A DNA stretch of 9,451 bases from Bifidobacterium breve (GTDB lineage Bacteria > Actinomycetota > Acidimicrobiia > Acidimicrobiales > Ilumatobacteraceae), in assembly GCA_943325435.2 (NCBI GenBank), contig CALPPK020000018.1, forward strand, positions 1 through 9,451, in the 5' to 3' direction. Below are positions 1 to 9,451 of the stretch, one piece after another. The notes under the pieces are model-generated. The model searched no databases. It worked only from the letters and a program-made list of their open reading frames with translations, and was not told where the DNA came from. The stretch's first letter is position 1. The number at the start of each line of letters is the position of its first letter. The position numbers and the translations under genes were made by a program.

Positions 1-75
1 AAGGTCGCGCAGCGATCCGCTGCCCCACTGAATCAGACTGGCCGCAATGCGGTCATTGCGACTTAGTCGGCCCAC
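1..75 (-). CDS. Partial CDS (N-terminus), possibly A/G-specific adenine glycosylase MutY
   Basis: An open frame runs off the left edge; 25 codons are visible from a GTG at 75-73, overlapping the end of the MaoC gene by 13 nt. An AGGA lies 3 nt before the GTG, a short but usable ribosome-binding spacing. The peptide holds IAASLIQWGSGSLRDL. This resembles the start of MutY proteins, where an L-x-W helix is followed by RDLPW. MutY removes adenine mispaired with 8-oxoguanine. The family call rests on about 16 residues, and the tell-tale PW lies outside the window, so it is a guess from pattern. The frame could also be chance. Confidence 0.35.
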   Translation of the reverse strand, partial: MGRLSRNDRIAASLIQWGSGSLRDL

Positions 76-578
76 ACGTCCTGTCCGTCGTATGGACGGC
101 GACGGCTTGGAGCGAACTCACGCTTCCACACCATGACGCGGCGTCGGAAGTAGCACACTTCTTTACCGTCTTGGTTGAAACCTTTTGTCTCTACTAACAC
201 TGTGCCTCGATCGTTCTTTGACTTGCTCTCAGTTGTTTCAAGAACACGAGTCTCTGCATGAATTGTGTCGCCATGAAATGTTGGGAACTTGTGCTGAAGC
301 GTTTCAACTTCAAGGTTTGCAATAGCTGCGCCACTGATGTCTGGAACACTCATTCCGAGCACCAAGGAATACACAAGGTTTCCTACAACAACGTTGCGGC
401 CTTGCACGCTCTCTTTTGCGAACCAGTCATTGGTGTGCAATGGGTGGTGGTTCATAGTGATCATGCAAAAAAGATGATCGTCATATTCAGTGATTGTCTT
501 GCCTGGCCAGTGACGAAAAACGTCTCCAGGAACAAAATCTTCAAGGCAGCGACCAAAGGGGCGTTCATGTGTTGTCAT
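63..578 (-). CDS. MaoC-family acyl-CoA hydratase, probable mesaconyl-CoA hydratase
   Basis: The 171-aa product is a single-hotdog MaoC/(R)-hydratase-type protein, presumably cytoplasmic. The N-terminal EDFVPGDVFRH segment (13-23) and a TMNHHPLHTN segment (41-50) fit the family, as do the FHGDTIHAETRV strand (101-112) and GFNQDG turn (133-138). The usual catalytic Asp of the D-x4-H signature is Asn43 here, with His48 kept. I recall this Asn in mesaconyl-CoA and related hydratases of actinobacteria. With dehydrogenase and lyase genes of the same pathway nearby, the likely reaction is hydration of mesaconyl-CoA to beta-methylmalyl-CoA. Itaconyl-CoA hydratase, as suggested for the mycobacterial relative next to a CitE-like gene, is the main alternative. 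The ATG is fixed by a -10 hexamer 7 nt upstream; a GGAG also lies there. The gene follows the membrane-protein gene by 10 bp. Confidence 0.82.
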   Translation of the reverse strand: MTTHERPFGRCLEDFVPGDVFRHWPGKTITEYDDHLFCMITMNHHPLHTNDWFAKESVQGRNVVVGNLVYSLVLGMSVPDISGAAIANLEVETLQHKFPTFHGDTIHAETRVLETTESKSKNDRGTVLVETKGFNQDGKEVCYFRRRVMVWKREFAPSRRRPYDGQDVWAD

Positions 579-585
579 GGCTCCA

Positions 586-591
586 ACGCTA
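586..591 (-). promoter_or_regulatory. Leaderless-type -10 element of the MaoC gene
   Basis: TAGCGT on the minus strand ends 7 nt before the ATG at 578. The first three bases (591-589) are also the TAG stop codon of the upstream membrane-protein gene. No clear -35 hexamer is visible. The same hexamer and spacing recur at both divergent starts near the right edge and, with 8 nt, at mcd. Confidence 0.6.
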
Positions 592-1782
592 CTCAGGTTT
601 CAGCGTGCCATCCGTATCGTCGTCTGAGAATTCAAGATCATTTGGGTCAAACACTGGCATCGGAAACTGCCCGGTGCGGTCACGCGGTGCAAATTTCTCA
701 ACCCAATCAACGGTGGTGAGCCCACGCTGTGCTTGAGACGTGGCAACACGTGGCAATGGCCCCAACTTGTGTTTGCGGTCAATAGAGAACGGGCCGACAC
801 GCAACGACAAGTAACTCAACCAACCAACAAATATCGGCAACCAATATTGAGCGACGCGATACGACAGAACCCCAACGGTGGCTAACGGACGAGCCAAGCC
901 GAATCCGACAAGAGTCGGAATGTAAATACTCTCCATGATTCCCAACCCACCTGGCGTGATTGGGATAACCGAGAAAACATTTGCAATTCCGAACGAAACG
1001 ACAAGAGCATCGAAACCGAGCGTTCCACCAAAGGCCCTAAGGAACACCCACAACGACAACGCATCAAGCGCCCAGTTCAACGTTGCCCAACCAACTACGC
1101 GTTGCATTAATGCGCGATCTGTAAACAGTCCTTCAATTCTGTTGCCCAAATGCTCAAGAACAGATGCTGCATGATGCTCATCGAATCGCAATCGTCTGGC
1201 AATCGAACGCACCAGACGTTCTGAACGTCCTTGACCTTCAACGAGGCCAAAGATTACAAACCCGGCAAACGCCATCAAGAGAATTCCGACAATCGCTGCT
1301 GTTCCGTACGCAGCGTTAACACCTCTAGTTGGAATTGAAATAATCAAACCAAACCACAAGATGAAGTTCAGTACCACGGCTGAACCAACGCCTGCAGTTG
1401 CCAAAGCAAACGCAGCATCAGGCCCTTTGACCCCGCACATCGTGATGAGGCGATATCCGAGTGCGGTACTTGCAGCACTTCCTCCAGGAACAATGTTTCC
1501 TAGCGCCTTAGTACTCAGCTGAATTCGGAACAACCGCAAAACACTGATGCCTGCTCCGTGATCTCCAAGGGCAGCTTTGGTCAACATGGAATATGCAAGT
1601 AACGAAAAACCTTGCAAACCAATTGCAACGAACAAAAGATTTGGGTCAACGTTCTTCAGATCTCGAACAGCATCGCGAAAACCCGGAATAAGCGGCAACA
1701 CAAAGAAGTACACAATCGCGCCGAGCACCACAAACTGCAGCGCCCTACTGACGCGCCAACGGCGCTGTACTTCCTCAGCCAT
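589..1782 (-). CDS. UPF0104 / YbhN-type multi-pass membrane protein (lysylphosphatidylglycerol synthase TM-like)
   Basis: This is an integral membrane protein of about 397 aa with some eight hydrophobic segments. It belongs to the family that includes the flippase-like half of MprF and the YbhN proteins. The key mark is the IPITPGGLGIMES loop near the last third, a conserved element of the family. A second is the ALGNIVPGGSAASTA stretch near the first third. The final 70 residues are hydrophilic and acidic, so the C-terminus is probably cytoplasmic. No aminoacyl-transferase domain is attached, so lysinylation of lipids is not implied and the substrate is unknown. ATG starts at 1782 and 1791 both overlap the end of the beta-lactamase-like gene (by 8 or 17 nt). 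Neither has a good Shine-Dalgarno or -10 sequence, so translational coupling is likely. A TTG at 1833 is less convincing. Confidence 0.85.
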   Translation of the reverse strand: MAEEVQRRWRVSRALQFVVLGAIVYFFVLPLIPGFRDAVRDLKNVDPNLLFVAIGLQGFSLLAYSMLTKAALGDHGAGISVLRLFRIQLSTKALGNIVPGGSAASTALGYRLITMCGVKGPDAAFALATAGVGSAVVLNFILWFGLIISIPTRGVNAAYGTAAIVGILLMAFAGFVIFGLVEGQGRSERLVRSIARRLRFDEHHAASVLEHLGNRIEGLFTDRALMQRVVGWATLNWALDALSLWVFLRAFGGTLGFDALVVSFGIANVFSVIPITPGGLGIMESIYIPTLVGFGLARPLATVGVLSYRVAQYWLPIFVGWLSYLSLRVGPFSIDRKHKLGPLPRVATSQAQRGLTTVDWVEKFAPRDRTGQFPMPVFDPNDLEFSDDDTDGTLKPE

Positions 1783-2824
1783 AGTGACCATCGTTGCCGA
1801 TATCTGACCCTTGTGTTGGGAATGCGTGAACAATCTTTGTTAACTCAGCCCTCAAATCGGGCGCATACTCAGCATTGGTCTTACCAAGTCTCACTACAAC
1901 AAGGTTGCGCCTAGGTGACACCCACGTGAACTGTCCTTCATATCCAAGTGCCGCGATAGAGCCAGGGTCATTCGGAAACATCCACACATGTGCGCCGTAA
2001 TCAAGGTCGTTGTCTGGGTCGCGAGCGATTGGTGTGCGCGAATAATCCACCCACCCTTCAGGCAATAGTCGTGAGCCATTCCACATTCCATCGGTCAAGT
2101 ACAGATATCCAAACCGTGCAAAGTCGCGAGCGGTGGCGTACACATATGACGAGCCGACAAAATTACCAGAAGCATCAAAACGTGGAACCGCTGATCGCAT
2201 ACCGAGTGGATCGAACAAACGGTCTTGTATGAATTTCGACACGACATCTGTGGAACCTGGTTCTTCACCTAATGCTCGAGCGAGAATTCTTGTGACCAGA
2301 TTTGTTGTGCCAGATGAATACAGATATTTCGTACCCGGCTTTGCATCCAATTTTTTTGAAGCCGCATACGCCGCGTGGTCTCCGACAAATTTCTCACTGC
2401 CAAACAACATTTCAATCACATCGGACACTTCATTGTCGACATAATCTTCGACCCACTCAAGCCCACTCATCTGGTTCAATAAATGACCCAGTGTGATGTG
2501 AGCGCGTTCGTCGTTTTCCCATTCAGGAAACAGATGATCATCCTCAATCGACAGCAATCCATCCCCCACTGCCATGCCCACCAGTGCCTGAGTGATGCTT
2601 TTCGCCATGGACCATGAAATCAAAGTCGTGGAGGCATCGGTTTCGGGGCTATAAAACTCACGAACTATTCGACCGTTATGAATAACAACAAGTGCCAATG
2701 TTGTGGCCAGGTGGGGCGGCTGTGAGGCCAGTTCTGCAATGACGCCGTCAAGAGTTTCCGCGTCAACCGATGGGGCAAGTTCGCCATCGAGCCAGTCGAG
2801 CGTGGGGAAAGTGTCAAATGCCAC
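1775..2824 (-). CDS. Serine beta-lactamase-family (class C-like) hydrolase
   Basis: The 349-aa protein belongs to the beta-lactamase / penicillin-binding-protein fold that also holds esterases such as EstB and 6-aminohexanoate-dimer hydrolases. The nucleophile motif S-x-x-K is Ser72-Met-Ala-Lys75. The second motif is Tyr169-Ser-Ser, a variant of the Y-x-N of true class C enzymes. A GYEGQF element near the C-terminus sits where KTG or HxG is expected. There is no signal peptide, so it is probably a cytoplasmic esterase or amidase and not a secreted antibiotic-resistance enzyme; the substrate cannot be read from sequence. The start is GTG, supported by a TAGTCT hexamer 6 nt upstream and no Shine-Dalgarno. 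It heads the minus-strand run into the membrane-protein gene and is divergent from the dehydrogenase gene. Confidence 0.85.
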   Translation of the reverse strand: MAFDTFPTLDWLDGELAPSVDAETLDGVIAELASQPPHLATTLALVVIHNGRIVREFYSPETDASTTLISWSMAKSITQALVGMAVGDGLLSIEDDHLFPEWENDERAHITLGHLLNQMSGLEWVEDYVDNEVSDVIEMLFGSEKFVGDHAAYAASKKLDAKPGTKYLYSSGTTNLVTRILARALGEEPGSTDVVSKFIQDRLFDPLGMRSAVPRFDASGNFVGSSYVYATARDFARFGYLYLTDGMWNGSRLLPEGWVDYSRTPIARDPDNDLDYGAHVWMFPNDPGSIAALGYEGQFTWVSPRRNLVVVRLGKTNAEYAPDLRAELTKIVHAFPTQGSDIGNDGHYG

Positions 2825-2830
2825 ATCAAG

Positions 2831-2836
2831 AGACTA
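2831..2836 (-). promoter_or_regulatory. Leaderless-type -10 element of the beta-lactamase-like gene
   Basis: TAGTCT on the minus strand lies 6 nt upstream of the GTG start at 2824. Transcription would begin at or next to the start codon. No -35 hexamer is obvious. Confidence 0.5.
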
Positions 2837-2858
2837 GGCGTGAGGGCCGAAACCGGCA

Positions 2859-2881
2859 TCACGGGTGCTCTAAACCCGTGA
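2859..2881. promoter_or_regulatory. Perfect 8-bp inverted repeat, candidate operator
   Basis: TCACGGGT (2859-2866) and ACCCGTGA (2874-2881) are exact inverted copies separated by 7 nt. The repeat is centred in the 80-bp gap between two divergent genes. If transcription starts at the two start codons, it covers about -46 to -24 of the dehydrogenase promoter. It would lie just upstream of the -35 zone (about -35 to -57) of the hydrolase promoter. That position suits a dimeric regulator acting on both genes. It is not followed by a T tract and is unlikely to be a terminator. The regulator is not in the window. Confidence 0.5.
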
Positions 2882-2890
2882 CTTATTCAC

Positions 2891-2896
2891 TAGCGT
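2891..2896 (+). promoter_or_regulatory. Leaderless-type -10 element of mcd
   Basis: TAGCGT lies 8 nt before the ATG at 2905. It supports that ATG over upstream in-frame codons and implies an mRNA with little or no 5' leader. Confidence 0.55.
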
Positions 2897-2904
2897 TTGA
2901 TTCC

Positions 2905-4506
2905 ATGACAACGACTGCCCCCGATATCCAGACAGCCGCCTCGGTGATCTCCACTGCTTCAGCGATGGTTGACACCGCAATTGCGTCTCTTGTTGCGCAA
3001 GGTGGCCCTGACAAGAATCAAACATTGGCATACGACATTGCTCACGTAGCAGCAGCTGTTTCGACAGCTAAATATCTTCTTCCCTACGGCGCCAAGGGTG
3101 TAGCCGAAGGAAACATTACGTGCGCATTCACTGCCGACATGGTGCATGACTTCGTTTCGCGCCTCATCGGCCGCGAACAGGCATGGGGTGTTGACCCTTC
3201 GCTGTTTTCTTCTGCACACGACTTTGTTCAGACATATCGCGCACCAAGTTTCCTCGCATCACTTGCAGAAGTTCAAGGGCCTCGCCATTTGGCAAGCGAC
3301 TTTGAAATGGTGCAAGACACTTTTCGTTCTTACGCAAACAAAGTCATCGCGCCTCAAGCCGAGCATGTACACCGTCACAACGGTGATGTTCCAGAAGAAA
3401 TCATTTCTGGTCTCGCAGAAATCGGCGCGTTCGGTCTCAGCGTTCCCGTTGAGTACGAGGGTTTTAGTGAAGGCGGCGAAAGCGAATACATGGCGTCAGT
3501 CATCGCAACTGAAGAATTGTCTCGCGGTTCGCTTGGCATCGGTGGCTCTTTAATTACTCGTCCTGAAATTCTCACGCGAGCACTTGTTAAAGGCGGAACA
3601 GAAGCCCAGAAACTTGAGTGGCTTCCAAAACTTGCCAGCACAGAAGTCATGTCAGCAGTAGCAGTGACAGAACCTGATTACGGATCAGATGTTGCGAGCT
3701 TGAAGACAACTGCAGTTCGCGGCACAGGACCTAACGGTGAAGCTGGTTGGATCATTAACGGCGTCAAGACATGGTGCACATTTGGTGCCCGTGCAAATGT
3801 ATTGATGCTTCTTGCACGTACAGACCCAGACCGTTCAAAGACTCACCGCGGATTGTCTCTCTTCATTGTTCCAAAACCACTTGGTGACTCACATGGGTTC
3901 ACGTTCAATCAAGACGGCGGCGGAAAAATGGAAGGTAGTCCTATTGACACCATCGGTTATCGCGGCATGCACAGCTACGAAATCGCTATCGAAAACTGGT
4001 GGGTTCCTGCTGCAAACCTCATCGGTGAAGAAGACGGCATTGGCAAGGGTTTCTATCTACAGATGGCTGGCTTTGAAAATGGTCGTTTGCAAACAGCAGC
4101 TCGCGCAGTTGGCGTAATGCAGGCCGCTTACGAGGCAGCAGTTGATTATGCGAATAACCGCACAGTCTTCGGACAACCCATCTCGCAATATGAACTCACG
4201 CAGGTGAAATTGGGTCGCATGGCCGTCCTCATTCAGGCTTCACGCCAGTTCTGTTATTCAGTAGCCGGCCTTATGGGCGTAGGTGAAGGCGCAATGGAAG
4301 CCAGCATGGTCAAGGCGTACGTATGCCGAGCAGCCGAATGGGTAACGCGCGAAGCTCTTCAAATTCATGGTGGCTACGGCTATGCAGAGGAATACAGCGT
4401 GAGTCGTTTGTATGTCGATGCACGCGTGTTGTCAATCTTTGAAGGCGCAGACGAAACTCTGTGCCTGAAGGTGATTGCAAAGAACCTTTGCGACACTAAG
4501 AAATAA
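2905..4506 (+). CDS. mcd: N-terminally extended acyl-CoA dehydrogenase, probable (2S)-methylsuccinyl-CoA dehydrogenase
   Basis: The 533-aa flavoprotein has a typical acyl-CoA dehydrogenase domain from about residue 131 to the end. The first 130 residues are Ala-rich and mostly helical in character, and are not part of ordinary 380-400 aa family members. The FAD/substrate loop AVTEPDYGSD is at 253-262. An IHGGYGYAEEYSVSRLYVDARV block precedes the likely catalytic base Glu513 in IFEGADETL. A similar N-terminal extension marks methylsuccinyl-CoA dehydrogenase of the ethylmalonyl-CoA pathway, which oxidises (2S)-methylsuccinyl-CoA to mesaconyl-CoA and passes electrons to ETF. Nearby MaoC and malyl-CoA lyase genes act on the next intermediates, which strengthens the call. 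The alternative is another long acyl-CoA dehydrogenase of unknown substrate. The ATG was chosen from the -10 element. The TAA stop directly abuts the convergent HAD gene. Confidence 0.8.
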   Translation: MTTTAPDIQTAASVISTASAMVDTAIASLVAQGGPDKNQTLAYDIAHVAAAVSTAKYLLPYGAKGVAEGNITCAFTADMVHDFVSRLIGREQAWGVDPSLFSSAHDFVQTYRAPSFLASLAEVQGPRHLASDFEMVQDTFRSYANKVIAPQAEHVHRHNGDVPEEIISGLAEIGAFGLSVPVEYEGFSEGGESEYMASVIATEELSRGSLGIGGSLITRPEILTRALVKGGTEAQKLEWLPKLASTEVMSAVAVTEPDYGSDVASLKTTAVRGTGPNGEAGWIINGVKTWCTFGARANVLMLLARTDPDRSKTHRGLSLFIVPKPLGDSHGFTFNQDGGGKMEGSPIDTIGYRGMHSYEIAIENWWVPAANLIGEEDGIGKGFYLQMAGFENGRLQTAARAVGVMQAAYEAAVDYANNRTVFGQPISQYELTQVKLGRMAVLIQASRQFCYSVAGLMGVGEGAMEASMVKAYVCRAAEWVTREALQIHGGYGYAEEYSVSRLYVDARVLSIFEGADETLCLKVIAKNLCDTKK

Positions 4507-5187
4507 TTACAACAGCTCGAGGAGCGAAGTAATTCTGCGACACGTCACAAGGTCTGCAGCATCGTCATACGGATCAACAAGAATCGGGATGAGTCCTGCT
4601 GCAGTTGCACCACCGACGTCCATCACCACGCTGTCGCCCACGTATGCAATTCGTGATCGATCAATGCCTGCAAAGAACGGCAGTGCGAAATCAAAAATGT
4701 GTGGGTCAGGTTTTGCTACCCCAACAACATGACTATCGACAATGCACCGAACACTGGCTAACGGGCCATCCCCCACTTGACAGATGCCACTGCGACCAAG
4801 AATTTCTTCAATCTGCCCACTTGCGTTACTGACAATTCCAATAGGAACTCCGGCAGCGTTAAGTCCGCGAAGTGTTTCAGCAGAACCAACTAGCGGGGCA
4901 CGCCATAAGTGGGCATGTCGGGTACGTGACAACACAAAGGTTGCTTCTTCACGGTTATGTTCTGGCACTCCCACCAACTGCACGTACGCAGTGTTGTAGT
5001 GCGACCAATCATCTTCGCCAGAACCCTGTCGTGACTTGGCTGTCATTGCTCCGTAGTGGGCACGAACGTAAGCGTCTAGTACAGACGTGGCTCCGTAATA
5101 GGCCAATGTTGGCGCAAGTACGGCGGGGTCCGGGATAAGAAACACTCCCCCGGCATCAAAAAGAATGGCGTCGTATTGCTGGCTCAT
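4507..5187 (-). CDS. HAD-superfamily hydrolase (phosphatase-like)
   Basis: The 226-aa protein has the four HAD motifs in order: nucleophile Asp11 in FDAGGV, Ser121 in IVSNAS, Lys160 in VAKPD, and Asp186/Asp191 in VGDSVVMD. A helical cap sits between motifs I and II, as in subfamily I. The second Asp of motif I, usually the general acid in phosphatases, is Gly13. This DxGG form occurs in many YihX/YjjG-like or dehalogenase-like members, so a phosphatase role is likely but not certain and the substrate is unknown. The start is the ATG at 5187, 7 nt downstream of TAGTGT. A longer reading frame to 5256 overlaps vapC and lacks support. It sits tail to tail with mcd with no intervening base. Confidence 0.82.
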   Translation of the reverse strand: MSQQYDAILFDAGGVFLIPDPAVLAPTLAYYGATSVLDAYVRAHYGAMTAKSRQGSGEDDWSHYNTAYVQLVGVPEHNREEATFVLSRTRHAHLWRAPLVGSAETLRGLNAAGVPIGIVSNASGQIEEILGRSGICQVGDGPLASVRCIVDSHVVGVAKPDPHIFDFALPFFAGIDRSRIAYVGDSVVMDVGGATAAGLIPILVDPYDDAADLVTCRRITSLLELL

Positions 5188-5194
5188 GCCAACG

Positions 5195-5200
5195 ACACTA
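5195..5200 (-). promoter_or_regulatory. Leaderless-type -10 element of the HAD gene
   Basis: TAGTGT on the minus strand lies 7 nt upstream of the ATG at 5187. Its TAG (5200-5198) is also the stop codon of vapC. This would let the HAD gene be transcribed without the toxin-antitoxin promoter. Confidence 0.55.
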
Positions 5201-5611
5201 GGAGATTTGACCTGCTGGCATGATCCATTCAGAACGTTGGCCAGTGATCTCAGCAATGTGATCGAAATTAATGTCGTAGTGCAACAACGTGAGGTCTAGT
5301 TGTTCCGCAACTGCAGCAATGATGAGGTCGGGGATCTTCCGACCGCGTTGAGATTTTTGCGCGAGAATTCTTTGTACCTGCAAAGCACGCATGAAATGTT
5401 CAGGTTGAACCTCGATGTTGAAGAATCGCGACAACAGATGCGAAGCACCTTCCCATTCCACTTCATTGCGCGCGGAATACAGATACTCGAGATCCGTTAT
5501 TGAGCACCGTGCAATTTCTCCGTTCAAAGTCAAAGCACGAACTTTTGTTAACACTTCATCGCTCTTCAGACGGTGAAGAACACTTGTATCGATGAGATAT
5601 TTCAGCGCCAT
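5198..5611 (-). CDS. vapC: VapC-family PIN-domain toxin ribonuclease
   Basis: The 137-aa protein has the acidic residues of a PIN ribonuclease: Asp8 in LIDTS, Glu42 in SITDLEY, Asp95 in KIPDLIIAAVAE, and Asp113 with Asp117 in LHYDINFDHIAEITG. These bind the metal ion used to cut RNA, in known cases often tRNA or rRNA; the target here is unknown. The length is normal for VapC and no key residue is missing, so it should be active. The ATG overlaps the end of the antitoxin gene by 10 nt with only a weak GAGAG before it, so translation is probably coupled to vapB. Confidence 0.9.
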   Translation of the reverse strand: MALKYLIDTSVLHRLKSDEVLTKVRALTLNGEIARCSITDLEYLYSARNEVEWEGASHLLSRFFNIEVQPEHFMRALQVQRILAQKSQRGRKIPDLIIAAVAEQLDLTLLHYDINFDHIAEITGQRSEWIMPAGQIS

Positions 5612-5796
5612 GCGCTCTCGCGACTAGTGGTGTCGAATGTAGAACCAAATTGCAGTGCCTTATCGAGTTCATGTTCGGCTTCAGAAACGGAATTCATCAG
5701 CGCCCGATTAATGGTGTCTTTCATGGTGGCGGTGCCAAGAGCGGCCTGGGCTGCCAGGAGCAATTCGTCGGGTATTTCCACTAGGCGTTTGGTCAT
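5602..5796 (-). CDS. vapB: VapB-type antitoxin
   Basis: The 64-aa protein begins MTKRLVEIPDELL, a short beta strand plus helix as in ribbon-helix-helix DNA-binding antitoxins. It continues with TMKDTINRALMN, the second helix. The C-terminal half (DKALQFGSTFDTTSRESAWR) is the part expected to bind the VapC active site, with a hydrophobic and an arginine near the end. An upstream in-frame ATG at 5814 would give six extra residues. A consensus-like TATACT lies 7 nt before the ATG at 5796 and inside that longer frame, so 5796 is preferred. Antitoxin first, toxin second and a 10-nt overlap is the usual type II order. The pair is probably autorepressed, although the operator is not certain. Confidence 0.85.
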   Translation of the reverse strand: MTKRLVEIPDELLLAAQAALGTATMKDTINRALMNSVSEAEHELDKALQFGSTFDTTSRESAWR

Positions 5797-5803
5797 GGCT
5801 TGA

Positions 5804-5809
5804 AGTATA
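5804..5809 (-). promoter_or_regulatory. Leaderless-type -10 element of vapBC
   Basis: TATACT on the minus strand, one base from TATAAT, lies 7 nt before the vapB ATG. GAAGT (5802-5806) and ACTTC (5816-5820) form short inverted arms over it, a possible autoregulation site. The arms are only 5 bp, so the operator idea is weak while the -10 is good. Confidence 0.6.
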
Positions 5810-5876
5810 TCCATAACTTCTATGTGTATATATCGTCATCATTGATGGCAATGTTTCCCCAGAGTCAGTCCCCCCA

Positions 5877-5882
5877 TACGAT
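5877..5882 (+). promoter_or_regulatory. Leaderless-type -10 element of mcl1
   Basis: TACGAT lies 6 nt before the GTG start at 5889. No Shine-Dalgarno is present. The 92-bp divergent gap that it shares with vapBC shows no other clear element. Confidence 0.5.
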
Positions 5883-5888
5883 TAACAC

Positions 5889-6938
5889 GTGCGCCCATCT
5901 CGTGACTTTTTCAAACCCCTTGCCGCCGGAGCTCCTGCCCCAGTTCAAGAGATTCCTTTTAAGCCCAGTCGTGTTATTCACTTCTTTCCGCCTCACAACG
6001 AAAAGATGGTTGCAAAGCTTCCTGACACCATTCCAAATGTCGACATCATTCTCGGCAACTTGGAAGATGCAATTCCGATGGCAGACAAGGCAGCCGCTCG
6101 CGCAGGCCTTATCAAGGTTGCCAACAGTCTCGACTTCGGCACCACTCAATTGTGGACACGCGTCAACAGTCTCGACTCTCCGTGGTTCCTTGATGACATC
6201 ATCGACATCGTCACCCAAGCTGGAGACAAGTTTGATGTGATCATGATTCCAAAGGTGGAAGGCCCTGAAGACATTCACTATGTCGATCGGTTGCTCGCAC
6301 AGCTTGAAGCGCGCGCTGGTTTGAAGAAGCCATTGCTTCTTCATGCGATTCTTGAAACAGCACGTGGCGTTGCAAACGTTGAAGAGATTTGTGCTGCATC
6401 TCCACGTATGCAGGGAATTTCACTCGGACCTGCAGACCTTGCAGCAAACCGCCGCATGAAGACCACCCGCGTTGGTGGTGGCCACCCCGACTACATCGTT
6501 CGTGCAGACCCAGAGGGTGACAATTACGAAGGCGCACGCACCGTGTACCAACAAGATTTGTGGCACTACACACTTGCCCGCATGGTTGATGCCTGCGTGA
6601 TGAATGGAGTTCTTCCGTTCTATGGTCCATTCGGAGACATTAAAGACACCGTTGCGTGTGAAGATCAGTTCCGCAACGCATACCTGCTTGGTTGCGTTGG
6701 CGCATGGAGCCTTCACCCCGTACAAATCGACATCGCAAAGCGCGTGTTCAGTCCTCGCCCTTCAGACGTATTGCAAGCACAGCGCGTCATTGACGCCATG
6801 GGCGACGGCACCGGTGCAGTAATGCTTGACGGAAAAATGGAAGACGATGCATCTGTTAAACAGTGCAAAGTTGTCGTTCAACTCGCTCGTCAATTGGCAG
6901 AGCGTGACCCTGCACTTGCCGCTTCATACGGTTTCTAA
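5889..6938 (+). CDS. mcl1: L-malyl-CoA / beta-methylmalyl-CoA lyase (CitE family)
   Basis: The 349-aa length matches malyl-CoA lyases of the Chloroflexus/Rhodobacter type and exceeds plain CitE. Family marks in order are [14 protein letters not shown] (30-43), [12 protein letters not shown] (56-67), RVNSLDSPW (91-99), [12 protein letters not shown] (118-129), [11 protein letters not shown] (151-161) and [12 protein letters not shown] (174-185). [13 protein letters not shown] then follows, and WSLHPVQI near the C-terminus. Glu156 and Asp183 are the expected Mg2+ ligands and Arg91 the expected substrate carboxylate ligand. The enzyme splits beta-methylmalyl-CoA to propionyl-CoA and glyoxylate, and reversibly joins acetyl-CoA with glyoxylate to malyl-CoA. 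The GTG start is supported by a -10 hexamer 6 nt upstream and by the family-like N-terminus. It is followed 25 bp later by a second CitE-family gene. Confidence 0.9.
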
Positions 6939-6963
6939 ACCCCCACAACACTGAGGAGACTCC

Positions 6964-7830
6964 ATGTCTGCACAACGTCCACGCCGTTCCGCTTTGTATA
7001 TGCCCGCCGCCAACGAGCGCGCGCTAGAAAAAGCCAAAAGCATTTCAACCGATGCGATCATCTTCGACCTTGAAGATGCAGTGTCACCAGATTCGAAAGA
7101 CCTTGCACGTGCGCAAGCAATTGCAGCAGTGAACTCCGGTGAATACGGCAAGCGCGAGCTCACCATTCGCTGCAATGCACTTGCAACACCATGGGGTCAT
7201 GCAGATGTTGCCGCAGCTGCGAAGGCTTGTGTGTCAGCAGTTGTGATCCCGAAAATCAACTCTGTTGGCGAAGTAAATGAAGTATCAGCAGCTCTTGACG
7301 CTGCCGGTGCACCAAAAGAGATGATGATTTGGGCGATGATCGAAACCCCAACAGCAATCTTTGATTGTCGTGAGATTGCCGCACACCCACGCGTTGCAGT
7401 TCTTGTTATGGGAACAAACGACTTGGCAAAGGAATTGCGCGCAGCGCAGGTACCTGGTCGTGCACCGTTATACCCAAGCCTTCACACTGCTCTTCTTGCA
7501 GCACGTGAAGCAGGTAAGACAATTCTTGACGGTGTCTACAACGACATCAAGAACGCAGACGGATTCCGTGCAGAGTGTATTCAAGGTGCAGAGATGGGCT
7601 TTGATGGAAAAACCCTGATTCACCCAGATCAAGTAGGCGTTGCTAATGACGTATGGTCACCAAGCGAAGCTGAAGTTGAACATGCACGCAAAGTTATTGC
7701 TGCATTCGACGAAGCACTCGCAGCAGGCAAAGGTGTTGTGCAGCTTGACGGCCGCATGATTGAGAATCTTCACGTTGCAAACGCACAACGCGCTATCGCA
7801 ATTGCTGATGCAATCGCCGAACTTGCCTAA
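6964..7830 (+). CDS. CitE-family protein, possibly (3S)-malyl-CoA thioesterase
   Basis: The 288-aa protein is a shorter CitE/HpcH-type TIM barrel than its upstream neighbour. RSALYMPAANERAL (8-21) and FDLEDAV (34-40) open the domain. Arg69 is the likely substrate ligand, Glu127 (MIET) and Asp153 (GTNDLA) the likely Mg2+ ligands, and KTLIHPDQV (216-224) the conserved C-terminal block. Members of this branch include citramalyl-CoA lyases, HMG-CoA lyase-like enzymes and the malyl-CoA thioesterase Mcl2. Being next to a true malyl-CoA lyase, a role in hydrolysing malyl-CoA to malate is the best reading, but lyase activity on citramalyl-CoA cannot be excluded. GAGGAG at 6953-6958, 5 nt before the ATG, is a strong ribosome-binding site, fitting internal translation of an mcl1-led mRNA. 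Confidence 0.82.
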   Translation: MSAQRPRRSALYMPAANERALEKAKSISTDAIIFDLEDAVSPDSKDLARAQAIAAVNSGEYGKRELTIRCNALATPWGHADVAAAAKACVSAVVIPKINSVGEVNEVSAALDAAGAPKEMMIWAMIETPTAIFDCREIAAHPRVAVLVMGTNDLAKELRAAQVPGRAPLYPSLHTALLAAREAGKTILDGVYNDIKNADGFRAECIQGAEMGFDGKTLIHPDQVGVANDVWSPSEAEVEHARKVIAAFDEALAAGKGVVQLDGRMIENLHVANAQRAIAIADAIAELA

Positions 7831-7839
7831 TTTTCTGAA

Positions 7840-8508
7840 TTAGAGATTCGCGCGGAATAGCGCAAGAGTGCGATCCCATGCAGTTTTTGCAACTGCAGCG
7901 TCGTACACCTCAGGACGAGTGTCATTGAAGAATGCATGCTGTGTTCCGGGGTACACATGGAACGTTGCATTCTTACCCTTGGCCCGCAACGTAGCCTCCA
8001 GTTCTTTCACAGCTTCTGGTGCAGCAGTGCCACGGTCTGTTGCGGCGTAATGGCCTTCCACAACTGCAGCCAAGTTGTCCCACTCAATAACAGTGTCTGG
8101 GCGCATGCCACCGTAGAACGGTGCAGCAGCTGCAATTGCATCAGGACGCAAACATGCAGCCATCAGAGCGAGTCCGCCACCCATACAGAAACCAGTGACA
8201 CCAACTTTGGTGCGACCTGTGCGTTCTTGCAGCAAATCAACTGCGCCACTGAGGTCTTTTCCTGCCGTTGCAAGATTCATGCTCATCAGCAACTTCCCAG
8301 CCATGTCTGGCTCATCGGTCATTTCGCCGTGATACATGTCGGGTGCAAGTGCAACAAAACCTTCTGCAGCAAAACGGTCTGCAATGTCAGTGATGTGTGG
8401 AACTAAGCCCCACCATTCTTGAATAACAATGACACCGGGGCCACTTGTGCCTGCAAGATAGCCAGTGCATGTTCCGCCGTTACTTTTGAATTCGACCATT
8501 TCGCCCAT
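7840..8508 (-). CDS. Dienelactone hydrolase-family alpha/beta hydrolase
   Basis: The 222-aa cytoplasmic enzyme has the full dienelactone hydrolase triad: Cys108 in GFCMGGG, Asp158 in YAATDRG and His190 in TQHAFFND. Glu31 in IQEWWGL matches the Glu that activates the cysteine. Classical members open dienelactone to maleylacetate in chloroaromatic breakdown. No other gene of such a pathway is near, so the natural substrate may be another lactone or ester. AGGAG at 8516-8520, 7 nt from the ATG, marks the start; a second ATG three codons later is less well placed. It lies 46 bp downstream of the eIF-2B-like gene on the same strand. TAGGTT at 8539-8544 could be its own -10. It converges on the CitE-family gene with 9 bp between stops. 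Confidence 0.9.
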   Translation of the reverse strand: MGEMVEFKSNGGTCTGYLAGTSGPGVIVIQEWWGLVPHITDIADRFAAEGFVALAPDMYHGEMTDEPDMAGKLLMSMNLATAGKDLSGAVDLLQERTGRTKVGVTGFCMGGGLALMAACLRPDAIAAAAPFYGGMRPDTVIEWDNLAAVVEGHYAATDRGTAAPEAVKELEATLRAKGKNATFHVYPGTQHAFFNDTRPEVYDAAVAKTAWDRTLALFRANL

Positions 8509-8554
8509 CAGAAAACTCCTTGTTGATTCGAGAGTCCCAACCTAGACGGAATAG

Positions 8555-9361
8555 TTACACAACACTGCGCCGAAGAAGTTCATCGGCAGCAGGGCACGCC
8601 TTCATGCGGGCAAGAGTGTCAGCAGTACCTGACGTAATGGTTGGCCCAAACACGGAAGTAACGAGCGCGTGTGGCACAACATCAAACCCTGACGCCCATG
8701 GATCTGGGCGATCGCGCACTCCGGCAACCATTGCTGTAAACAATCCGTCTGGCAAGCGTGTGCCTTCTGATGCAACCATCCATACTGGCTGTTCAACGCA
8801 ATATGCGACAGCGGCAAGCGCCAACGAACCACCTGCGCACAACACACTGTCATTGCCGACTGCCAATGCAGACAAAATTGTTGCATCAGCGCATTCAGCT
8901 GCCGATGCAAGACCCTCAGGTGCAACCAACTCACAACTCACTTCACGTCGTGACAAGTAACGCAATGAATCTTGTCCATCACCTAATGAATCGACGACCA
9001 GTGCATGAATGTCTCCGCGTCGTGCGAGTGCATCAACAAGATGACCAGACCATCCGATCATGCAAATGGTTGACGCACCATCAAGAGCATCGACCAAGTG
9101 AGTGGCTGTGGCGTCATTCGCAATACGGCGAGCCAGATCATCCACGTCTCGGTACGGGTCCATTGATGTGACCGCGTGGGCGCACACAGACCACAGCGGA
9201 GCGTTTGTAGGGTGATGTTCCACCAGGCGCCGAGCTGCCACCAGAGCTGCCGCCGGATCACGGGAAATGCCCGCAAGAGCGTCGGCCGCACCCATGGCAA
9301 CTTCCACCGGGTCTGCCCCGTGGGCTCGCGCCACATAACGGAGATGCTCGATGGGGTGCAT
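8555..9361 (-). CDS. eIF-2B alpha/beta/delta-like protein (MtnA/NagB-type fold)
   Basis: The 268-aa protein looks like the bacterial initiation-factor-2B-like group related to methylthioribose-1-phosphate isomerase and ribose-1,5-bisphosphate isomerase. An N-terminal helical part holds AADALAGI and AARRLVEHHPTNAPLW. It is followed by a Rossmann-like half with DGASTICMIGWSGHLVDAL (93-111) and ECADATILSALAVGNDSVL (156-174). A GGSLALAAVA stretch (177-186) and a PVWMVASEGTRLP strand-loop (192-204) come next, where MtnA has its NKIGT and VPFYV elements. No metal or cofactor motif is evident. Function is unknown; sugar-phosphate isomerisation or ligand sensing are possible, and a translation role is unlikely in a bacterium. 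The ATG lies 7 nt from TAGCGT. The family call is from pattern and is moderate. Confidence 0.65.
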   Translation of the reverse strand: MHPIEHLRYVARAHGADPVEVAMGAADALAGISRDPAAALVAARRLVEHHPTNAPLWSVCAHAVTSMDPYRDVDDLARRIANDATATHLVDALDGASTICMIGWSGHLVDALARRGDIHALVVDSLGDGQDSLRYLSRREVSCELVAPEGLASAAECADATILSALAVGNDSVLCAGGSLALAAVAYCVEQPVWMVASEGTRLPDGLFTAMVAGVRDRPDPWASGFDVVPHALVTSVFGPTITSGTADTLARMKACPAADELLRRSVV

Positions 9362-9368
9362 GTTCTCA

Positions 9369-9374
9369 ACGCTA
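9369..9374 (-). promoter_or_regulatory. Leaderless-type -10 element of the eIF-2B-like gene
   Basis: TAGCGT on the minus strand lies 7 nt before the ATG at 9361. Confidence 0.6.
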
Positions 9375-9380
9375 CTGAAC

Positions 9381-9386
9381 TAGCGT
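9381..9386 (+). promoter_or_regulatory. Leaderless-type -10 element of the right-edge gene
   Basis: TAGCGT lies 7 nt before the GTG at 9394 and mirrors the -10 of the divergent gene. Confidence 0.55.
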
Positions 9387-9393
9387 TGAAGCC

Positions 9394-9451
9394 GTGGCAA
9401 CCGCATCTCTCCCCAACCCCAGCATGGACCTCACTCTCACCCCTCTCAAAG
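9394..9451 (+). CDS. Partial CDS (N-terminus) of unknown function
   Basis: Nineteen codons from a GTG to the right edge read MATASLPNPSMDLTLTPLK. The GTG is chosen because it stands 7 nt from a TAGCGT hexamer, as at other starts here. An in-frame ATG ten codons later is the alternative. The fragment is too short to identify; the MDLTLTPL stretch recalls the first residues of some acyl-CoA dehydrogenases or flavin oxidoreductases, but that is not evidence. Confidence 0.5.
   Translation, partial: MATASLPNPSMDLTLTPLK

Follow-up and report, generated by a model that had tools for sequence, protein, structure and literature searches.

Can a gene that begins only 10 nucleotides (nt) downstream of its neighbor's stop codon carry a promoter of its own? 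The question is raised by a 9,451-nt stretch of contig CALPPK020000018.1 (hereafter the window) from a small-genome freshwater actinobacterium of the family Ilumatobacteraceae, in which eight start codons are each preceded by a hexamer of the form TANNNT. The original prediction described these as belonging to eight apparent first genes and took them as a sign of pervasive leaderless expression. All eight combinations of hexamer, spacer, and start codon are present exactly as described, but two of the genes, those starting at 578 and 5187, follow a same-strand open reading frame (ORF) that ends 10 nt upstream and so are not first genes. The reading favored here, to which we assign a probability of roughly 0.85, is that the upstream stop codon doubles as half of the −10 element of a separate leaderless promoter, and that the hexamers are ordinary actinobacterial −10 elements.

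Conservation of the box at the 578 junction

On the minus strand, a flippase-like gene (LPG_synthase_TM; 589..1782, with 1782, 1791, and 1833 as possible starts) is followed by a MaoC-type dehydratase gene with a leaderless-type start (63..578, PF01575, a motif-blind gene call). The stop codon of the flippase-like gene, TAG at 591-589, opens the hexamer TAGCGT (586..591), the putative −10 of the MaoC-type gene. Relatives of each window gene were drawn from 80 loci, leaving out matches with less than 45% identity, less than 60% coverage, or a start after residue 25. All 63 relatives of the MaoC-type gene carry TANNNT at 6–8 nt before its start, and all 63 have a flippase homologue upstream on the same strand, although the 63 are not all independent of one another (L008 and L009, for instance, are almost identical in this region). 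In 49 of them the flippase stop codon is the TAG of the box. An automatic overlap label at one locus (L046), triggered by a 135-codon open frame, was dropped, leaving 49 and not 50; tracing the flippase homologue gives the same 49/63.

The other 14 relatives keep TANNNT with the flippase stop codon elsewhere, 49–55 nt upstream in six and 17–19 nt upstream in five. In L015, L018, and L037 the box is TATCGT, and the flippase ORF reads through it to end at a stop codon overlapping the next start. TAGCGT is the commonest form of the MaoC box, with TATCGT, TAGTTT, TACTCT, and TAGGTT as variants, and the upstream sequence around it otherwise largely differs between more distant relatives. Across these relatives, the putative box, and not the stop codon, is the conserved element at the 578 junction.

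Stop codons and putative −10 boxes across related genomes

The pair test set consisted of 902 co-directional gene pairs from 1.67 Mb of ingroup DNA, which came from nine genomes belonging to the G001 genus set. Genes were called by a program that scores codon usage and start-codon type only and never sees upstream sequence. Gaps of 9–11 nt were singled out because a stop codon would then begin a box with a spacer of 6–8 nt. Such gaps were found in 48 pairs, as compared to 24 at 6–8 nt and 11 at 12–14 nt. At gaps of 9–11 nt, 30 of 42 TAA or TAG stop codons continue as TARNNT, versus 45 of 383 at other gaps between 0 and 400 nt (Fisher P = 2e-16). The 30 pairs span 27 downstream protein families, and the nearest genome alone gives 15/18 versus 14/185 (P = 3e-12). 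These counts supersede an earlier run on 1.2 Mb with another training step, in which 22 of 31 such stop codons at gaps of 9–11 nt were followed through as TARNNT. Within the 42, T occupies the third base after the stop codon 30 times and bases +1, +2, +4, and +5 only 5, 5, 12, and 15 times; third-base T is not raised at gaps of 5–8 nt (3/22) or 16–25 nt (7/44). A Shine-Dalgarno-like site precedes 1 of the 30 stop-overlap genes versus 63 of 233 downstream genes in other pairs at gaps of 0–30 nt.

These figures bear on whether leaderless expression is limited to first genes, with the hexamers before 578 and 5187 having arisen by chance. A TAA or TAG stop codon lying 9–11 nt before a start needs just one more T to complete the hexamer, and the frequency of T at −6 to −8 across all genes is 0.23–0.34. 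Even so, T in 30 of 42 has a binomial P of 4e-8 at p = 0.3, the pairs at this gap exceed those at neighboring gaps, Shine-Dalgarno-like sites are few, and all 14 of the 14 relatives with the stop codon elsewhere still keep the MaoC box, so that chance seems quite unlikely. Of the 902 downstream genes, 156 have a box, which lies wholly in the gap in 112, begins at the stop codon in 30, and lies inside the upstream ORF in 14; none of the 156 boxes overlaps the end of the upstream ORF in another register. Many of the 112 gap-borne boxes sit in long gaps, and the genes behind them may each be the first on a separate transcript. Taken as a pattern in sequence, the double use of a stop codon, which would also form half of the following −10 box, has good support, both statistical and evolutionary.

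In the mechanism we propose, an upstream TAA or, mostly, TAG stop codon would provide the opening triplet of the TANNNT box that precedes the next gene. The box would be opened by RNA polymerase carrying a principal-type sigma factor, transcription would start on the start codon itself, and ribosomes would initiate on the resulting leaderless mRNA. Abutting genes 9–11 nt apart may thus be separate transcription units. The downstream gene could be expressed independently of its upstream neighbor, and on read-through transcripts it would stand without a Shine-Dalgarno site.

A different role for TARNNT would be translational, with ribosomes re-starting 9–11 nt past the stop codon and the hexamer helping at the RNA level. 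Re-initiation is favored in general by close stop-start spacing (PMC4633059), but the hexamer stands at the same spacing before divergent genes, which have no upstream same-strand stop codon, and is kept where the stop codon lies elsewhere. Such a role is therefore highly unlikely. In streamlined Ilumatobacteraceae, stop-codon identity and intergenic spacing are both likely to be under promoter selection, with packed co-directional genes forming separate leaderless units.

The HAD hydrolase junction

The second junction of this kind is also on the minus strand. The TAG stop codon (5200-5198) of a PIN-domain (VapC-like) gene (5198..5611; below the NCBIfam VapC cut-off) opens the hexamer TAGTGT (5195..5200), the putative −10 box of the HAD hydrolase gene with its start at 5187. 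The HAD gene is divergent from the first of two CitE-like genes. The two are separated by 30 nt in L007, L008, L009, and L011 and by 69–70 nt in L005 and L014; in the window, L001, and L004 the distance is 701 nt, and the intervening DNA holds a VapBC-like pair. L005 and L014 keep TAGTGT before the HAD gene, and 69–70 nt leaves no room for vapC. Because the hexamer is there without the vapC ORF, the promoter appears to supply the stop codon of vapC.

The pair itself (5188-5888) sits between two divergent leaderless-type promoters, and L005 and L014, which are without the pair, keep both flanking boxes. Its small partner gene (minus strand, start 5796) owes the name VapB-like to its position, having no family match; its putative −10 is TATACT (5804..5809), and an in-frame rival ATG at 5814 has no hexamer. 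Counting TANNNT at 6–9 nt before homology-guided starts, as for all conservation counts below unless stated otherwise, the box is kept in 2/2 relatives of this gene. On the other flank, TACGAT (5877..5882, plus strand), the putative −10 of the first CitE-like gene (start 5889), is kept in 37/37.

The leaderless signature in the window and its relatives

Counted by distance to start codons, TANNNT shows a sharp peak 6–8 nt before starts in the nine related genomes. It is found there in 190 of 776 first genes versus 7 at a control offset of 16–18 nt, and in 292 of 1389 genes overall versus 13 (the all-gene counts omit 31 of 1420 ingroup genes having less than 30 nt upstream, the 776 first genes are complete, and genes at locus edges are excluded from the first- and inner-gene counts). 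Spacers of 6, 7, and 8 nt account for 152, 94, and 46 of the 292 boxes. The peak is seen in eight of the nine genomes; the ninth, G003 (68% GC, thinly sampled), has a box at 1/18 first genes, and the nearest genome at 89/337. A reversed-pattern control was rejected as a null: the reversed pattern can match codon usage at any position, and in most cases it is more frequent than the forward pattern.

Other features are consistent with leaderless initiation. None of the 292 leaderless-type genes starts with TTG, versus 31 of 1389 genes overall (P = 0.001), so that their starts are all ATG or GTG. Shine-Dalgarno-like tetramers, counted over the first 600 kb of G001, precede 8/75 leaderless-type first genes versus 70/224 other first genes. 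Boxes do not appear to be confined to the single or first genes of a transcript, a confinement that is expected of leaderless genes more than it strictly defines them: co-directional genes at gaps below 40 nt have a box in 85/532 cases, 30 of which begin at the upstream stop codon, as compared to 5 at the control offset. The absence of a consistent −35 element, remarked on in the original prediction, extends to an alignment of 79 genes from the nearest genome, in which no column from −36 to −5 exceeds 0.10 bits. Closer to the box, in the same genome, column −4 favors C (0.29 bits, 40/79) and column −1 favors C or G (0.18 bits, 58/79). We know of no element that matches a C preference four bases before a −10 box. 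In the nearest genome, a principal-type sigma factor shows a region 2.4 that looks normal by eye.

The starts in the original prediction were picked by eye, and it might be asked whether gene starts were simply chosen so as to put the motif at 6–8 nt. With a caller blind to upstream sequence, and with no peak in Escherichia coli under the same code (4/128), such a gene-calling artefact is hardly credible.

TAGCGT had been singled out as a preferred signal, but it is the top variant of the consensus TA[GC][CG]GT. It is the commonest form, at 33 of 292 boxes versus 24 expected from column composition (P = 0.04); T stands in third place in 16/292, and TATAAT occurs once. This slight excess, together with the unusual constancy of TAGCGTTT before the acyl-CoA dehydrogenase gene and the prevalence of TAGCGT among MaoC boxes, could point to a regulator site or an alternative sigma factor box for acyl-CoA metabolism instead of a general −10 element. 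That appears very unlikely, since the excess is small, the place and spacing are shared with many other TANNNT hexamers, and the box at the MaoC locus varies (TATCGT, TAGTTT, TACTCT, TAGGTT). By these comparisons the TA-led hexamers are the known actinobacterial leaderless signature, and the pervasive leaderless expression they predict is ordinary. The prediction of such expression was right in kind, as the peak in related genomes, the lack of a visible −35, the absence of TTG, and the conservation of most boxes suggest, but this kind is already known and is ordinary for actinobacteria.

Within the window, TANNNT occupies 0.22% of positions (42, both strands). With both strands counted, it lies 6–8 nt upstream of 8 of 381 ATG and 3 of 385 GTG triplets; the listed starts make up 8 of these 11 (of 766 triplets in total). 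The argument that eight hexamers at eight starts are far from chance nevertheless loses its footing, as those starts were picked by eye: the motif-blind caller finds 9 gene starts in the window, 6 of them with a hexamer, while vapB and the truncated gene starting at 9394 go undetected. Such a density is indeed high but not unique. Overlapping 9451-base stretches of the nearest genome, some of which extend past the ends of shorter loci and which include the region orthologous to the window, hold 0–7 hexamer starts each, with at least 6 in 18/792. Overall, the observation behind the original prediction is partly confirmed and its interpretation partly supported.

Other genes, divergent pairs, and contrast cases

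Besides the MaoC-type hydratase and the flippase-like protein, the window codes for a serine hydrolase of the beta-lactamase fold, an acyl-CoA dehydrogenase, a HAD hydrolase, two CitE-like lyases, a dienelactone hydrolase, and a PIN/VapC-like protein accompanied by its small partner ORF; one further protein has no NCBIfam match. The acyl-CoA dehydrogenase is 99% identical to the copy in L001 (from G001, a 1.9 Mb metagenome genome), and many of the other close matches are labeled Ilumatobacteraceae, Acidimicrobiaceae, or unspecified Actinomycetota, labels that would put the window within or close to Ilumatobacteraceae. Several public metagenome genomes (L001, L005, L021, L030, L042, L070, and others) bear the titles Bifidobacterium breve, Acidimicrobium ferrooxidans, or Ferrithrix thermotolerans but carry Ilumatobacteraceae-like loci, and these titles look doubtful. 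A plasmid origin of the window was rejected, as the plasmid collection holds no near match to the acyl-CoA dehydrogenase gene, as was an RNA-family reading, the window having no Rfam match.

The serine-hydrolase gene (minus strand, start 2824) and the acyl-CoA dehydrogenase gene (plus strand, start 2905) diverge. The putative −10 of the former, TAGTCT (2831..2836), is kept in 18/27 relatives, and that of the latter, TAGCGT (2891..2896), in 64/76 with motif-blind starts or 76/78 with homology-guided starts and a spacing of 5–9 nt. Automatic labels equating stop codon and hexamer at the acyl-CoA dehydrogenase (10) and first CitE-like (3) genes were discarded, as an open frame of 80 codons was enough to produce them. 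Before the acyl-CoA dehydrogenase gene, TAGCGTTT recurs in many relatives with a constancy beyond what TANNNT needs, and one group (L019, L020, L025, and others) also has GTGACA, −35-like by eye, 17 nt upstream. Between the two divergent promoters, at 2859-2881, is the inverted repeat TCACGGGT-7-ACCCGTGA, a candidate operator.

At the right end of the window, the genes starting at 9361 (minus strand) and 9394 (plus strand) have back-to-back TAGCGT boxes, putative −10s at 9369..9374 and 9381..9386. The boxes are not independent of one another, because both sit in one 9-nt inverted repeat (9366-9374 and 9381-9389, with 6 nt between the arms). The box of the 9361 gene is kept in 7/7 relatives, and both boxes are kept in L001, L004, L015, L017, L018, L037, and L065, some of them 12 nt apart by eye. 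Placed back to back, the two promoters would probably exclude each other. In L090, a divergent pair with a gap of 20 nt has two leaderless-type starts that share the symmetric 7-mer TACGGTA, apparently a single box read in both directions.

Two genes of the window serve as contrast cases and, as the original prediction had it, are preceded by Shine-Dalgarno sites and no hexamer: the second CitE-like gene (plus strand, start 6964) by AGGAG (6954..6958) and the dienelactone hydrolase gene (minus strand, start 8508) by AAGGAG (8516..8521). TANNNT is found in 0/36 relatives of the former and 14/30 of the latter. For the dienelactone hydrolase, the Shine-Dalgarno site in the window versus TANNNT at leaderless spacing in those relatives would amount to a gene-level switch of initiation mode.

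Reach and weight of the evidence

In the outgroup samples, stop-borne boxes are few. G048, of the same phylum at 55% GC, has a comparable leaderless share (45/225 first genes) and plentiful TAA and TAG stop codons; it has 1 TARNNT pair at gaps of 9–11 nt in 220 co-directional pairs, versus 30/902 in the ingroup (P = 0.02). Among pairs at gaps of 9–11 nt, TARNNT is found in 1/1 in G055, 1/3 in G070, 0/0 in G063, 0/1 in G040, 1/4 in G048, 0/0 on the Deinococcus deserti plasmids, and 0/8 in E. coli. G112, from the family of G001 at 66% GC, has no pair at this gap among 32 and boxes at 4/45 first genes. Gene calling is less dependable at high GC (G055 yields 90 genes in 140 kb). The stop-borne box is most aptly regarded as a trait of this small-genome lineage, and is possibly a by-product of compactness.

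Several points weigh against a promoter role for these stop codons. Gaps of 0–2 and 3–5 nt, with 38 and 45 pairs, are as common or nearly as common as those of 9–11 nt, and third-base T is somewhat raised at gaps of 12–15 nt as well (5/13 TAA or TAG stop codons). Because the ingroup genomes are related and their counts not fully independent, the pairs were also reduced to one per downstream family, giving TARNNT in 20/29 versus 32/297 (P = 1e-11); the preference for TAG over TAA at gaps of 9–11 nt becomes marginal on collapsing families (P = 0.09). At the HAD gene, TANNNT is found at 6–9 nt in 27/62 relatives, so that many are without a box. The contrast between the ingroup and G048 is modest, and the outgroup samples are small and mostly high in GC, where such gaps or TAA and TAG stop codons are rare. 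Gene calling was crude: of 45 annotated genes on a stretch of E. coli DNA, the program found 38, with 27 starts exact, and for this reason the true leaderless share is probably higher than counted.

If stop codons do double as promoter halves, runs of genes in compact genomes would often not be operons, even at spacings of about 10 nt, and operon prediction would change. Genome streamlining would have a concrete route for packing regulation into coding punctuation, and stop-codon choice would gain a reason other than termination efficiency. The pattern can be checked by sequence in any lineage rich in leaderless genes.

Comparison with known systems

The leaderless signature is known; what would be new, as far as we found, is the reuse of stop codons in the next −10 box. 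In the portions of the open-licence literature searched, no statement of overlap between stop codon and promoter was found, which is not proof of its being unpublished, and the available parts of PMC6319747 and PMC6457490 hold nothing bearing on it. The overlaps of stop and start codons (RTGA) described in PMC4633059 are distinct from an overlap of stop codon and promoter.

In Mycobacterium tuberculosis and M. smegmatis, leaderless initiation is reported for about a quarter of genes or transcripts, with ATG or GTG starts (PMC3898074, PMC4633059, PMC6448022), and PMC3898074 describes a TANNNT −10 with no −35 and an over-representation of toxin-antitoxin genes among the leaderless. The genes analyzed here are alike in their TANNNT, their lack of a −35 element, their share of about a quarter, their ATG or GTG starts, and the presence of toxin-antitoxin genes. 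They differ in the stop codon within the putative −10, which the consulted parts of those accounts do not describe.

The back-to-back boxes at 9361/9394 and other divergent pairs resemble symmetry-based bidirectional promoters (PMC12825309, PMC10268837), as does the shared box in L090. Unlike the symmetric bidirectional −10 promoters, the 9361/9394 pair has two boxes 6 nt apart and not one shared. A further close parallel is with the TA-led leaderless genes of Actinobacteria and Deinococcus-Thermus, whose start codons have TANNNT some 12 bp upstream (Zheng et al. 2011, PMC3160421). The position of TANNNT, its weak middle positions, and the large share of genes that carry it are common to both, whereas here the genome has 51% GC, the box tends toward TA[GC][CG]GT, and closely spaced downstream genes are boxed too.

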